Shown piece by piece: positions 10,309 through 19,538 of a stretch of DNA of 29,328 nt; the stretch's first letter is position 1; each line of letters opens with the position of its first letter. The stretch is from NCBI GenBank assembly GCA_947165795.1, contig CAMVBP010000002.1:1-29328 (forward strand), in the 5' to 3' direction. Both the position numbers and the translations under genes were made by a program. Under the pieces are notes generated by a model. The model saw only the letters and a program-made list of their open reading frames with translations. It was not told where the DNA came from and did not search any database. This stretch comes from an uncultured Treponema sp. Its GTDB lineage: Bacteria; Spirochaetota; Spirochaetia; Treponematales; Treponemataceae.

Positions 10309-10986
10309 TTATTTTTTACCAAGCAATGTGAATTTTTCTGCCCTGTTGCAGAAAATAATTCCGCTTCCCGCTTCGGCAAAACAAGGCAAAGCAATAACTG
10401 CATTAACAATATCATCTTTTTTCTCTTCAGGCGCAAGAATCATAAGCATATCTTTTTCGGGAACAATTTTCATGCCAAAGAATTTTTCATCGTCTTCTTT
10501 TGCGGTTCCTCTGGCTCCTATGATTGTACCTCCGTTTGCACCGGCTTTTCTTGCTGCTGCCATTGCGTCTTCTGCATAACCTTTATTCACAATAATATTT
10601 ATCATCTGATAAGAATTTTCCATATCGTTTTCTCCTTTTTTATTTTCTTTTGTAGCAACAGGATGAATGTTACCGGAACGCATAAACAAGTCTACATCAA
10701 CAGAAAAAATTACACCAAAATGATTCTTCTTTTCTGCAGCAGCAGATTTTATACTTTCAAAAATACTGTTTTCTTCGTTTTTATTAACAATGATAAAAAC
10801 AATATCCTTTGAAGAATCTCCAAAACCAAGAAGCTGTAAAACAGAATTAGAAGCCGTGCCACGTCCCATTACAATAGAACCGCCGTTTGCACCGGCCTTT
10901 CTTGCAGCGTCAACAATAAATTCTCCACTGTCATGAGGAACTATACTCACCAAAAGTGAATAAGAATTATACTCTTCCACTGTCAT
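10309..10986 (-). CDS. Tandem two-domain P-II-like regulatory protein
   Basis: This 225-residue protein is built from two P-II (GlnB-like) domains in a row, residues about 9-105 and 122-222. Each carries nearly the same core, ARKAGANGGSIVMGRGTA at 28-45 and ARKAGANGGTIIGARGTA at 145-162; the second half also ends in a P-II-like EAGSGIIFC. Ordinary P-II proteins are about 112 residues and form trimers that bind ATP/ADP and small effectors and control membrane transporters. The start codon lies inside the DUF1538 gene (20-base overlap) behind a strong AAGGAGGTG site, so the two are made together. The inferred role is a sensor and gate for that membrane protein. It lacks the Tyr51 T-loop environment of classical GlnB, so it is unlikely to be an uridylylated nitrogen regulator. 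Confidence 0.85.
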   Translation of the reverse strand: MTVEEYNSYSLLVSIVPHDSGEFIVDAARKAGANGGSIVMGRGTASNSVLQLLGFGDSSKDIVFIIVNKNEENSIFESIKSAAAEKKNHFGVIFSVDVDLFMRSGNIHPVATKENKKGENDMENSYQMINIIVNKGYAEDAMAAARKAGANGGTIIGARGTAKEDDEKFFGMKIVPEKDMLMILAPEEKKDDIVNAVIALPCFAEAGSGIIFCNRAEKFTLLGKK

Positions 10987-12547
10987 TCGTTACACCTCCT
11001 TCGGGCAAATTACCTTGTGAAGTTTTCTTTTGCTTGAATTTAAATATAATTCCCATAATCTGAATTGCAATTAACGGCATCATTGCAACAAGCGCAATTA
11101 CACCAAAAGAATCGTTTCCACCCTTGCCGGAAGAAGCCGCACCTAAAGTAAATGAAAGTACAAAGGTAGAAGTTAACGGACCGGAAGCAACGCCGCCGGA
11201 GTCAAATGCAATTCCCGAAAATAACGAAGGAGAAAAAATCATAAGAAGCATGGAAATTATATAACCAGGAATAAGAATCCATCTTAAATTAAAACCAAAT
11301 ACCGCACGGCACAAAGAAAGCGCAATTGCTATTGCGGTTCCTGCAGATAAAAATATAAGAAGAATTTTTCGCTTGATTGTACCGCCGCTGACAGCTTCTA
11401 CCTGCTCGCTTAATACCCACACCGCAGGTTCTGCACAGACAATAATTGCACCAAGAATAAATCCTATTATTAATAAAAGAGTAAAATAAAAACCGCCTTT
11501 ATTAATTGCGAGCTGTCCCAGAGTATCGCCAAGAGTTTTTCCTGCCTGCATAAATCCGCCGTTTACGCCGACCAGAAAAACAGTAAGACCAATGAACGCA
11601 TAAATAAATCCTATAGTAATTTTAATTACCTGTCGGAGAGTCATGCGCAAAAGAGAAAACTGAAATATTAAAAATAAAACAAAAAGCGGGAAAATAGAAA
11701 TTAATGCTTCTTTTAAAACATGCGAAAATGAGTTTCCAAAAGGCGAAAAAATCTGATAAAAAATTCCACCTGCGACAGAAGAATTCTGCAAAATGTTACC
11801 TGCAGACGAAGCGGCTGAATTAATTGAATTAGCAACCGTGTTCATTTCTGACTGATTAATTCTGCCGGTTTTAGCAATAAATATTGAATAAATTAAAACG
11901 GCCAGAACAGGTCCTACGGAACAGATTCCTGTAAGACCAAAACTGTTTTTATCGTCATCGCGTACAGAAGAAACACCAAGTCCTAAAGCCATAATAAATG
12001 GAACAGTCATTGGGCCGGTTGTTGCTCCGCCGGAATCAAATGCAATTCCAATAAAGCTTTCGGGAACAAAAACTGTAATTAAAAAAACTAATGAGTAAGA
12101 AATCAAAAAAGAAATTTTTAACGAAAGGTTTAATACAGATCTTAGAAGACCGATTGTAATGAATAATCCGACTCCAGCCGCAATTACAAAAGTAAGTAAT
12201 ATTTTATTAACGCCGGCAAAAATATTTTTTACCTGGTTTGCAAATACCTGAATATCCGGTTCGGCGGCAGTAACAATAAAACCGATTAAAAATGCAACGC
12301 AAAGAAGTAAAACCAATGAACGTTTTTTAGTTAATTCTGCACCGCATCGTTCACCCATCGGCTGAATACCTAAATCTACGCCAAGAAGAAAAACTGTCAG
12401 CCCAAAAATTAAAAGAATTCCTCCAATAAAAAATCTTATCAGAAGAATTCTCTCTAGAGGAACAATTGTAAGTCCAAGCAATATTACTATTGCCATTACC
12501 GGAATTACAGAAACAGCTGTTTCCTTTAATTTAGAAAGTATATTCAA
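10967..12547 (-). CDS. DUF1538 polytopic membrane protein, internally duplicated
   Basis: This 526-residue inner-membrane protein has a dozen or so hydrophobic segments, made of two homologous halves. The halves share FGLTVFLLGVDLG with GLTVFLVGVNGG, AAEP (94-97) with CAEP (371-374), and AFDSGGATTGPMT (169-181) with AFDSGGVASGPLT (447-459). This is the DUF1538 family; two inverted or direct halves with polar re-entrant motifs are typical of secondary transporters, but the substrate is unknown to me. The start is TTG at 12547, preceded by AAGTGG and 19 bases after luxS; no nearby in-frame ATG with a ribosome site was found. The P-II-like gene starts inside its 3' end. Operon position after luxS may be incidental. 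Confidence 0.85.
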   Translation of the reverse strand: MNILSKLKETAVSVIPVMAIVILLGLTIVPLERILLIRFFIGGILLIFGLTVFLLGVDLGIQPMGERCGAELTKKRSLVLLLCVAFLIGFIVTAAEPDIQVFANQVKNIFAGVNKILLTFVIAAGVGLFITIGLLRSVLNLSLKISFLISYSLVFLITVFVPESFIGIAFDSGGATTGPMTVPFIMALGLGVSSVRDDDKNSFGLTGICSVGPVLAVLIYSIFIAKTGRINQSEMNTVANSINSAASSAGNILQNSSVAGGIFYQIFSPFGNSFSHVLKEALISIFPLFVLFLIFQFSLLRMTLRQVIKITIGFIYAFIGLTVFLVGVNGGFMQAGKTLGDTLGQLAINKGGFYFTLLLIIGFILGAIIVCAEPAVWVLSEQVEAVSGGTIKRKILLIFLSAGTAIAIALSLCRAVFGFNLRWILIPGYIISMLLMIFSPSLFSGIAFDSGGVASGPLTSTFVLSFTLGAASSGKGGNDSFGVIALVAMMPLIAIQIMGIIFKFKQKKTSQGNLPEGGVTNDSGRV

Positions 12548-16907: not shown

Positions 16908-17270
16908 ATGCAAAAAGCCGTTGAACTCTGTGAAAGCGAAATCATTCATGAGGAAATTGTCAAAAAAGTAAAAAAGACATTTCCTAAAGATGAAATGATT
17001 TTCGACCTTGCAGATTTTTATAAAATATTTGGAGATACTACCCGCGTAAAAATTCTTTATGCGCTGGATAAAAGCGAACTCTGCGTATGTGATATTTCGG
17101 CATTGCTTGGAATGTCTGTTTCGGCAGTTTCTCATCAGCTTAAGATTCTGCGCGATTCGAATCTTGTAAAAACAAAACGCGAAGGAAAAATTGTTTATTA
17201 CAGTCTTTCTGATGAACACGTAAAGAGCATTCTCGAATGTGGAATTGAACATATTTCAGAATTAAAATAG
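16908..17270 (+). CDS. ArsR/SmtB-family metal-sensing repressor with two metal sites
   Basis: This 120-residue winged-helix repressor should release DNA when it binds Zn, Cd or Pb, derepressing itself and the downstream ATPase. The core is FGDTTRVKILYALDKSELCVCDISALLGMSVSAVSHQLKILRDSNLVKTKREGK. The alpha3 site is ELCVCD (Cys59, Cys61, Asp62), completed by N-terminal Cys8 and possibly His14. The alpha5 site has Asp102, His104, His115 and Glu118, with exactly the spacing of SmtB (Asp104, His106, His117, Glu120). This combination resembles ZiaR. A strong GAGGAGG precedes the ATG. The ATPase gene follows by 27 bases. The metal is inferred, with Zn most likely because of the partner. Confidence 0.93.
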   Translation: MQKAVELCESEIIHEEIVKKVKKTFPKDEMIFDLADFYKIFGDTTRVKILYALDKSELCVCDISALLGMSVSAVSHQLKILRDSNLVKTKREGKIVYYSLSDEHVKSILECGIEHISELK

Positions 17271-17297: not shown

Positions 17298-19538
17298 ATG
17301 AGTAAAGAAATAGATGAAGAATTAAAGCATGAATATCATGATTATGATATTCATAATGAGCATAATCACGAGGAACATGAGCATCACCACGAACACGAGC
17401 ATCACCATGAGCATCACCACGAACACGAGCATCACCACGAGCATCACCACGAACACGAGCACCACGGGGAGCATGAACACCATCACCATGATCATGAAGA
17501 ATGTGAGTGTCATCATGAACACCATGAACATTCACATGGCGGCTGCAGCTGCGGACATGAGCATGGGCACCACCACGATCATTCACACGGCGAAGAAGAA
17601 AAAGAACTTTCTGTAAAGCAGCTTGTTTTTGCAGCCGTACTTTTTGTACTTGGCTTAGTTATTGAACACCTTCCTTTAGAAACATGGCTGAGTAACGTTG
17701 GTAAGATTGAATTAATTCACCGCGCTGTTTTTATGGTGCTTTACTTTATTGCCTTTATTATTACAGGAAAAGATATTGTAATCGGCGCTGTTTCTAATTT
17801 AATTCATGGTGAACTGATGGACGAATCCTTCTTAATGTCTGTTGCCGCTATCGGTGCAATTCTTCTTGGCGAATATGAAGAAGCCGTTGCAATTATGATT
17901 CTGTATCAGGTCGGAGAAAAATTCGAAGATTATGCAGTAGATAAATCCCGCGACTCTATTGAAGAAATTGCAAAACTCCGTCCCGATCACGCAACTATAA
18001 AAGTTGGTGCAGAAACCCGCGAGGTTGCCCCGGAAGATGTAGAAACAGATTCTGTAATTATTGTAAAACCGGGCGACAGAATTCCAATCGACGGTGTTGT
18101 TGTAGACGGAGAAAGCTTTGTAGACACTTCAGCACTTACAGGAGAAAGTATTCCGCGCCGCGTTGCAGTTGGAGATGAAGTTCTTTCCGGTTCGATTAAT
18201 AAACAGGGCGTTCTGGAAATCCGTACTACCAGACATGCTGGAGATTCTGCACTTTCACGTATTCTTGAACTTGTAGAAAATGCAACAGAAAACAAGACAA
18301 AGTCAGAACAGTTTGTAACTCGATTTGCAAGAGTTTACACTCCAATAGTTGTTTACTCAGCGCTTGTGCTTGCAATTATACCAAGCATCATTATCGGAAT
18401 TAAATCCGGAAACTGGGGCTGGCATGAAACCTGGAATACCTGGTTTTACCGCGCGCTCATGTTCCTTGTTGTAAGCTGCCCTTGTGCAATTGTAATTTCT
18501 ATTCCGCTTTCTTTCTGCGGCGGTATTACAGCAGCTGCACGCAAAGGAATCTTAATTAAAGGAAGCGTTTATCTGGAAGCGCTTGGCCGTACAAAAACTG
18601 CAGTTTTCGATAAAACAGGAACTCTTACAAAAGGAAACTTTGTTGTAACTCATATTCACGCAACAGATGCTGCAATTACAGAAACAGAACTTCTTGCACT
18701 TGCAACTCATACAGAAATGTTCTCAACTCACCCGATTTCTGCATCGCTAAAAGCCGCTCATCACGATAAATGCTGCGACCAGGTAAAGCTTGAAAATGTA
18801 GAAGAAATTGCAGGAAAAGGAATTAAAGCGCTTGTAAACGGCAAAGAGGTTCTTGCAGGAAACACACGTCTTATGGAGCACTTTGGCATAGCTTACAACG
18901 AGTGTGCAGAACATCAGGATGGAACAGTCATTCATGTTGCAAGCGAAGGAAAATACAGCGGCCACATTGTAATCAGTGATGAAATAAAAGATGACTCTGC
19001 TTCAACCGTTGAAGGCCTTCATAAAATTGGTGTAGAAAATGTTGTAATGCTTACAGGCGATAACGAGCGTGCTGCCCACACAGTTGCCGCAAAGCTCGGC
19101 CTTAAAAAAGCATATGGTCAGCTTTTGAGTGCAGACAAGCTTGCCAAAGTAGAAGAACTCCTTGCAGACCTTTCAAAATCAGGAAAAAAGCGTGGAACAC
19201 TTATTTTTGCAGGAGACGGAATTAACGATGCTCCCGTACTCGCCCGCGCCGATGCCGGAATTGCAATGGGTTCAATGGGAAGTGACGCTGCAATCGAAGC
19301 TGCTGACATAATCGTTATGGAAGATAAACCTAGTAAGATTGTTGAAGGAATTAAAATAAGCCGCCGCACACTCCGCATAGTTTATGAAAATCTTTACGGA
19401 GCACTGGGAATTAAAGGAACAATTCTCCTTCTCAGCGCAATCGGAATTTCTAATATGTGGATTGCAGTTTTTGGCGATGTTGGCGTTACAATTCTTGCTG
19501 TATTGAACAGCCTGAGGCTGCTTAAAAAACAGAAATAG
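17298..19538 (+). CDS. P1B-type Zn/Cd/Pb-exporting ATPase with histidine-rich N-terminus
   Basis: This 746-residue inner-membrane pump belongs to the ZntA/CadA class. Residues 11-98 are an extraordinary histidine tract with about 45 His, mixed with Glu and a few CxC pairs, in place of the usual GMTCxxC metal-binding domain. The rest is canonical: TGES at 281, CPC at 394-396 in the transport helix, DKTGT with the phosphorylated Asp438, HP at 478-479, GDGIND at 639-644, Lys in GIKG and Asp727 in the last helix (VFGDVGVTI), matching ZntA Asp714 and supporting Zn/Cd/Pb specificity. AAGGAG precedes the ATG. It is cotranscribed with the ArsR-type gene. Its last 17 bases overlap the convergent YcaQ-type gene. 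Confidence 0.94.
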   Translation: MSKEIDEELKHEYHDYDIHNEHNHEEHEHHHEHEHHHEHHHEHEHHHEHHHEHEHHGEHEHHHHDHEECECHHEHHEHSHGGCSCGHEHGHHHDHSHGEEEKELSVKQLVFAAVLFVLGLVIEHLPLETWLSNVGKIELIHRAVFMVLYFIAFIITGKDIVIGAVSNLIHGELMDESFLMSVAAIGAILLGEYEEAVAIMILYQVGEKFEDYAVDKSRDSIEEIAKLRPDHATIKVGAETREVAPEDVETDSVIIVKPGDRIPIDGVVVDGESFVDTSALTGESIPRRVAVGDEVLSGSINKQGVLEIRTTRHAGDSALSRILELVENATENKTKSEQFVTRFARVYTPIVVYSALVLAIIPSIIIGIKSGNWGWHETWNTWFYRALMFLVVSCPCAIVISIPLSFCGGITAAARKGILIKGSVYLEALGRTKTAVFDKTGTLTKGNFVVTHIHATDAAITETELLALATHTEMFSTHPISASLKAAHHDKCCDQVKLENVEEIAGKGIKALVNGKEVLAGNTRLMEHFGIAYNECAEHQDGTVIHVASEGKYSGHIVISDEIKDDSASTVEGLHKIGVENVVMLTGDNERAAHTVAAKLGLKKAYGQLLSADKLAKVEELLADLSKSGKKRGTLIFAGDGINDAPVLARADAGIAMGSMGSDAAIEAADIIVMEDKPSKIVEGIKISRRTLRIVYENLYGALGIKGTILLLSAIGISNMWIAVFGDVGVTILAVLNSLRLLKKQK
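17388..17465 (+). repeat. Tandem 30-bp repeat coding for the His/Glu tract
   Basis: Two 30-base units (17388-17417 and 17418-17447) differ at one silent position and both encode HEHEHHHEHH. A third unit starts at 17448 and runs in register for about six codons (HEHEHH) before diverging. Near-identity at the DNA level points to recent duplication and likely length variation between strains. Confidence 0.85.

Follow-up and report, generated by a model that had tools for sequence, protein, structure and literature searches.

Why should a membrane protein of the DUF1538 family and a soluble P-II-like protein be encoded by overlapping genes in a gut Treponema, and what might the one do to the other? 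The question arises from a 29,328-nucleotide (nt) stretch of an uncultured Treponema sp. (assembly GCA_947165795.1, contig CAMVBP010000002.1, positions 1 to 29,328), hereafter the window, in which both genes lie on the minus strand. An earlier note on this DNA had proposed a two-fold or pseudo-symmetric channel or transporter gated by a tandem P-II protein. Our analysis favours, with moderate confidence, a P-II-gated cation/proton antiporter, i.e., a single transport unit in which an inverted-repeat DUF1538 protein would be under tandem P-II control; the gating, the substrate and the ligand are what we infer from the evidence detailed below. The two genes and their junction are laid out as follows:

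10967..12547, minus strand: gene of the DUF1538 membrane protein, 526 residues, TTG start (open reading frame [ORF] list; PF07556 in two stretches; AlphaFold2 [AF2] model with a mean predicted local distance difference test score of 91.7 and a predicted template modelling score of 0.90)
10309..10986, minus strand: gene of the tandem P-II-like soluble protein, 225 residues, ATG start (ORF list; PF00543 in two stretches; predicted fold)
10967..10986, minus strand: 20-base overlap of the DUF1538 and P-II genes (ORF coordinates)
10995..11000, minus strand: ribosome binding site AGGAGG of the P-II gene, in the last DUF1538 codons, 8 nt before the ATG

The overlap and the strong ribosome site had both been pointed out previously and are both present, the stretch upstream of the P-II gene ATG being gaaggaggtgtaacgaATG. 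Because AGGAGG precedes this ATG by 8 nt, among the final codons of the membrane gene, translation of the two genes is probably coupled. The nearest relative is a Spirochaetales metagenome-assembled genome (L001; 94% identity over DUF1538), with the other close relatives listed mostly titled Treponema. An Rfam scan of the window returned no family at the gathering score.

Is this pairing peculiar to the window? Scanning genome contigs with the DUF1538 query yielded 59 loci, 58 of them with a P-II gene directly downstream, while the contig of the 59th (L058) ends 6 nt past its DUF1538 domain. In surveys with PF07556, matches were obtained in 27 of 149 genomes around Treponema bryantii (centre G001; 26 above cutoff), 67 of 199 around a Clostridiales centre (G002), 12 of 145 around a Verrucomicrobia centre (G003) and 0 of 14 control genomes; the group labels Spirochaetota, Bacillota and Verrucomicrobiota derive from these centre loci. 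Units were defined among the scan loci and the survey matches listed, leaving out G260 (E 6.7e-7), Halomonas and a sub-cutoff fragment of G060 (L091, without a DUF1538 domain at E <= 1 by our own profile). Domains were counted by DNA position and rows whose DUF1538 parts coincided over their initial or final 150 nt were merged, reducing 236 rows to 181 units, which are interdependent in that many come from close Treponema relatives. A P-II-like domain lies directly downstream on the same strand in 173 of these 181 units, at a gap of 31-358 nt after the DUF1538 domain. The earlier note had let its reading hang on the two families occurring together in other genomes, and they do.

Five exceptions are found at contig ends (L058, L126, L192, L248 and L259); for L126, the second half continues to the contig end (L146/L161). 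L272 is cut at the edge of the retrieved stretch, displaying a DUF1538 fragment of 88 residues that no P-II gene adjoins, and also the beginning of a pair whose P-II genes are found in L097. The order is reversed in L271:2-1049 (G306:C87), where P-II precedes a single 230-residue DUF1538 protein by ~130 nt, and no P-II or DUF1538 was detected in the 4.6 kb downstream of that DUF1538 gene. L184 (G209) holds a decayed DUF1538 relic of two short frames, without a P-II neighbour. Viewed from the P-II side, 193 of the 5329 ORFs scanned are P-II-like, and 12 of these did not lie directly downstream of a DUF1538 ORF by the first rule. Frames running upstream over the DUF1538 gene account for 11 of the 12 (domain positions shown for eight), and the remaining one (L113), at a locus edge, adjoins a second DUF1538 unit of G229. 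High-GC Verrucomicrobia were considered as exceptions to the pairing and rejected as such, with their frames extending upstream across the DUF1538 gene. The ORFs scanned, in loci up to L191, included no in-frame fusion of DUF1538 with P-II. On the Verrucomicrobia contig of L058 (2021-4981), two DUF1538 domains ~1.6 kb apart share a single open frame, which continues past the contig end.

What, then, is the membrane protein? It matches PF07556 in two stretches with 416 bits (cutoff 22.6), and its halves align at 33% identity over 224 columns (E 7e-40). Its domains and motifs are positioned as follows:

11879..12499, minus strand: first DUF1538 domain, residues 17-223, N terminus predicted cytoplasmic (Pfam stretch; positive-inside count)
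11021..11722, minus strand: second DUF1538 domain, residues 276-509, orientation predicted opposite (NCBIfam UmpB match; positive-inside count)
12257..12265, minus strand: AEP motif of the first half, from residue 95, with E96, at a helix break (alignment; AF2 model)
12026..12040, minus strand: FDSGG motif of the first half, from residue 170, with D171, just before a helix break (alignment; AF2 model)
11426..11434, minus strand: AEP motif of the second half, from residue 372, with E373 (alignment; AF2 model)
11192..11206, minus strand: FDSGG motif of the second half, from residue 448, with D449 (alignment; AF2 model)

Each half thus carries one AEP and one FDSGG, matching the paired motifs noticed previously (AEP at 95/372, FDSGG at 170/448), and E96, D171, E373 and D449 do not vary across a 66-sequence alignment. 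Against the NCBIfam UmpA and UmpB equivalogs (NF041627 and NF041628), the halves score 171.3 versus a cutoff of 490 and 173.8 versus a cutoff of 500, respectively, i.e., both below. Seven membrane crossings per half are predicted for UmpA and UmpB, with the helix breaks in the AF2 model of the window protein permitting other counts. By sequence, DUF1538 has no homologue among solved Protein Data Bank (PDB) chains; a CLC-like fold was considered and not adopted. At E <= 0.001, nothing was matched in the viral structure library, and viral contig scans returned 0 and 1 loci.

How the two halves sit in the membrane can be approached through their charges, as the positive-inside rule relates Lys/Arg-rich loops to membrane orientation. 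For the ANTIPARALLEL halves, loops were set from the helices of the window protein and mapped to homologues, and Lys plus Arg were counted on each side (A and B). The window protein displays 8 on A and 5 on B in its N half, and 4 on A and 9 on B in its C half. Across 102 distinct sequences from 137 fused ORFs, A exceeds B in 101 N halves (with 1 tie) and B exceeds A in all 102 C halves, for related sequences and loop bounds of our own choosing. With the reference halves swapped, A>B is retained in 99 of 102 N halves (1 reverse, 2 ties) and A<B in 100 of 102 C halves (2 ties). Split pairs behave likewise: A>B holds for 20 of 23 first genes (3 ties), A<B for 22 of 23 second genes (1 tie). Single-domain proteins are few; the seven at hand give biases of +1, +2, -3, 0, +1 and -2, with +1 for L271, by the N-half reference, and -1, 0, -3, +1, +1, -3 and -1 by the C-half reference. 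Such a protein is the sole DUF1538 match in genomes G484, G307, G335 and G257, is accompanied by a fused copy in G193 and G235, and in G306 (L271) by a further DUF1538 match on another contig.

This opposite charge bias of homologous DUF1538 halves is new in this analysis. Together with the near-zero bias of the singles, it implies, under the positive-inside rule, that the two domains would lie in opposite orientation as an antiparallel inverted-repeat transporter, by which the pseudo-symmetry previously proposed takes on a more precise form.

And is the soluble partner truly P-II? It matches PF00543 in two stretches with 50.3 bits (cutoff 25), its domains being placed as follows:

10687..10965, minus strand: first P-II domain, about residues 8-100
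10321..10614, minus strand: second P-II domain, about residues 125-222

A beta-alpha-beta-beta-alpha-beta P-II fold is predicted by AF2 for both halves, and Foldseek and VIA match it to GlnK, GlnB and SbtB, such that the two P-II folds on which the earlier note had likewise staked its case are indeed predicted. The internal duplication it reported for both genes also holds, the P-II halves aligning at 31% identity over 100 columns (E 3e-13); that identity confines the 'near-identical' cores it described to the short segment ARKAGANGG..RGTA, and does not extend to the whole domains.

The ligand-site residues depart from those of canonical P-II proteins. At Lys90 of the GDGKI nucleotide motif, 24 of 25 canonical controls have Lys and 1 has Arg, versus 0 Lys and 2 Arg (both in third domains) among 258 partner domains. 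Arg101, present in 24 of 25 controls, occurs in 0 of 29 single-domain partners and 0 of 92 second tandem halves; first tandem halves (n=90) have Arg in 14 and Lys in 42, the window first half reading FMRSG there. Arg103 (24 of 25 controls) is found in 3 of 90 first and 3 of 92 second tandem halves, and in 0 of 29 singles. The T-loop (G37 to K58) has a median of 14-15 residues in single and tandem partners versus 20 in the 25 controls, with 20 also found for the first domain of three-domain partners. Since the canonical Lys90 is missing from the partners, their ligand binding is probably unusual. Tandem N and C halves do not fall into separate groups in a tree built from P-II domains, and one or several tandem fusion events are therefore both possible.

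The tandem form described in the window is itself only one arrangement, with partners elsewhere holding one, two or three P-II domains; two domains per chain are thus accurate for this locus, yet not defining for the system. Among the 173 units, the layouts are a fused DUF1538 pair with a tandem P-II (106), a split pair with one single P-II (20), a fused pair with a three-domain P-II (14), a split pair with a tandem (10), one DUF1538 with one P-II (6; L171, L187, L224, L238, L251 and L252), a split pair with two single P-II genes (4), and one visible DUF1538 domain with a tandem (7; six cut at the upstream locus edge, L057 unclear); six further layouts, of one unit each, are mostly truncated units or profile-split domains. 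Plasmids carry the system as well, in the order DUF1538, DUF1538, P-II in alphaproteobacterial Chelativorans and Methylocystis, and as a fused DUF1538 plus tandem P-II in Peptoclostridium; their gene tables already label the neighbours 'DUF1538 domain-containing protein' or 'DUF1538 family protein' and 'P-II family nitrogen regulator'.

By PF00543 only, a P-II neighbour was detected in the Spirochaetota survey for 17 of 18 compact DUF1538 proteins (one, G120, at merely E 0.058) and for 0 of 11 long ones, a count using the stronger PF00543 rows plus G120, with the weaker rows omitted being on contigs other than those of the long DUF1538 genes. That long DUF1538 proteins have no P-II neighbour was nonetheless rejected, as the neighbour is a three-domain P-II-like protein mostly missed by PF00543. 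The protein following the long genes has 364-392 residues where complete, in which an iterated profile detects three P-II domains, with E-values inflated by the inclusion of three-domain proteins in that profile. Pfam at E <= 10 gave P-II in 5 of 8 such partners tested (one above cutoff with two stretches) and no family in 3 of 8. Profile-profile alignment with the 25 canonical P-II proteins yielded probabilities of 93%, 70% and 61% for the first, second and third domains, where tandem halves and singles reached 95-97% and five unrelated proteins of the window stayed below 1%; by these sequence comparisons, the identity of the third domain as P-II is the least certain.

How might the pair function? 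The substrate was previously held to be undescribed, which does not wholly stand, since another DUF1538 pair, UmpAB of Halomonas zhaodongensis, has been published as an Na+(Li+,K+)/H+ antiporter (PMC5484666). By analogy, we favour secondary exchange of Na+, K+ or Li+ against H+ by the window DUF1538 protein. Its halves would be antiparallel, probably with seven helices each, and each would contribute to the ion site its AEP Glu and FDSGG Asp, both invariant and located close to helix breaks. Coupled translation of a shared transcript would supply the tandem P-II-like protein, which would dock its T-loops onto the cytoplasmic face of the transporter and set its activity, probably by inhibition, in response to a small molecule that the P-II-like protein binds. 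This ligand is most likely an adenine nucleotide, bound in a manner unlike that of canonical P-II; c-di-AMP was considered as a candidate ligand as well. We infer a common transcript, physical binding and a direction of control. Inhibition by P-II is more likely than activation, as UmpAB clones lacking a P-II gene were active in E. coli and as the cases of transporter control listed in a P-II review are inhibitory (PMC10710835). For two P-II domains per chain in a three-fold ring, one possibility is two stacked rings from three chains.

A broader proposal, which we put forward tentatively as somewhat less than an even prospect, is that DUF1538 comprises a full antiporter series (dual-topology single, split pair and inverted-repeat fusion), each stage with dedicated P-II-like control. 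The partner would have gained domains in parallel, passing from one through two to three and ending as a P-II ring within a single chain, in what would be the first P-II-gated antiporter family, with a ligand or site other than ATP/2-oxoglutarate. If a P-II partner is conserved alongside a cation/proton antiporter, P-II sensing would extend to the homeostasis of sodium, potassium and pH in bacteria of the gut and the environment, while the occurrence of single, paired and fused transporters with one-, two- and three-domain regulators renders antiparallel topology and P-II stoichiometry directly testable.

Three other readings can be weighed against the gated antiporter. The strongest, which we regard as unlikely though deserving of attention, is that DUF1538 is P-II-gated but transports some other substrate (an anion, bicarbonate or a small metabolite), the UmpAB antiport being Halomonas-specific or indirect; the direct P-II targets named in the above review are ammonium, nitrate, urea and bicarbonate transporters (PMC10710835). 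The window protein, with two homologous DUF1538 domains like UmpAB, scores below the UmpA and UmpB equivalog cutoffs. Improbable in our view is that the membrane protein serves as a sensor sequestering P-II, whose main target would be another protein or transcription. AmtB indeed sequesters GlnK, and 3 of 120 listed P-II homologues are source-named 'transcriptional regulator' (P0017, P0078 and P0081; names only); however, in 40 loci viewed gene by gene and by eye, there is no constant third neighbour, the constant one being the DUF1538 gene, and luxS, upstream in the window, is so placed in just 30 of 55 loci. That the genes are merely co-transcribed for shared expression, with no direct contact between their products, is very improbable: the overlap and coupled translation would suffice for matched expression, but adjacency kept in 173 of 181 units, whether their layout is single or multi-domain, split or fused, would be difficult to account for if the genes had no joint function.

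Several neighbouring genes and other P-II-like pairs merit description alongside the proposed gated antiporter. In the window, luxS and a methylthioadenosine/S-adenosylhomocysteine-nucleosidase-type gene (PF02664 and PF01048; 12567-13751) lie on the same strand directly upstream of the DUF1538 gene; luxS was rejected as a general partner on the above count of loci with room for it. Where luxS is so placed in Treponema, one transcript may cover both the antiporter genes and those of the autoinducer-2 (AI-2) pathway. Farther off, an ArsR-family regulator gene (16908-17270; Pfam) precedes a gene (17298-19538) for a 746-residue protein with a very His/Glu-rich N-terminus that resembles, by eye, a heavy-metal P-type ATPase. 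Two best P-II matches, in T. bryantii and the genome nearest the window (L060, G001:C11:484758-485072; L061, G004:C11:17577-17891), fall within open frames of 558 or 562 residues, which could be P-II fused to another protein, e.g., an ammonium transporter.

From PF00543 matches away from DUF1538, eight loci (L263-L270) were retrieved. A different P-II-like subfamily (115-140 residues) adjoins an Na+/H+-exchanger-type protein in L263:1630-3212, L264:1817-3383, L265:1858-3207, L266:1747-3386, L267:2949-4580 and L268:2912-6700, with a PF00999 match in all five loci scanned (L263-L266 and L268, from Clostridiales-centred survey genomes), L267 assigned by eye and the pair present twice in L268. PF00999-type proteins are thus a second antiporter-type family with a P-II-like neighbour. 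In L270:2796-4083, a 99-residue P-II-like protein adjoins an SbtA-type bicarbonate transporter (PF05982, E 1.2e-115); its genome, G045, also carries a long DUF1538 protein.

How does the system compare with those already known? Among titles and abstract openings, we found no description of a DUF1538-P-II system, and a prior account elsewhere is possible; nor did we find a paper naming both 'P-II family nitrogen regulator' and DUF1538. Closest on the transporter side is UmpAB, which likewise has two homologous DUF1538 domains, both required, in a reported heterodimer (PMC5484666). UmpA and UmpB are, however, separate genes, whereas the window protein is a fusion, and the term P-II occurs 0 times in the main text of that paper.

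Closest on the regulatory side are PG0541-type transporter-associated P-II-like proteins and the GlnK-AmtB and SbtB-SbtA pairs. The partner of the PG0541 type is a resistance-nodulation-division (RND) metal pump (PII-NG type), and one neighbour of that pump type adjoins a P-II-like gene, by eye, in L269. As a divergent P-II-like protein, the window partner shows a weak match to the PG0541 profile (NF045581; E 0.0041), yet its 17.1 bits are below the cutoff of 45. According to the review cited above, P-II proteins control transporters directly, GlnK acting on AmtB and AMP-bound SbtB on SbtA (PMC10710835). There, as here, the gene of a P-II-fold protein adjoins that of the transporter, as in glnK-amtB, but DUF1538 matches no solved chain by sequence and its P-II partner has two (elsewhere one or three) domains per chain and lacks Lys90.

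Finally, the series of single gene, gene pair and inverted-repeat fusion has been documented for DUF606 (PMC3962082) and UPF0016 (PMC4067407), the former paper giving biases of -2 to +1 for five proteins of dual topology and, with either sign, of 6 to 7 for antiparallel partners. The same three stages exist within DUF1538, with near-zero bias in singles and opposite bias in halves. The DUF1538 halves are larger, with seven helices predicted in UmpA and UmpB versus three spans in UPF0016 clusters, and, unlike DUF606 and UPF0016, DUF1538 units retain a P-II-like neighbour, directly downstream in 173 of 181.
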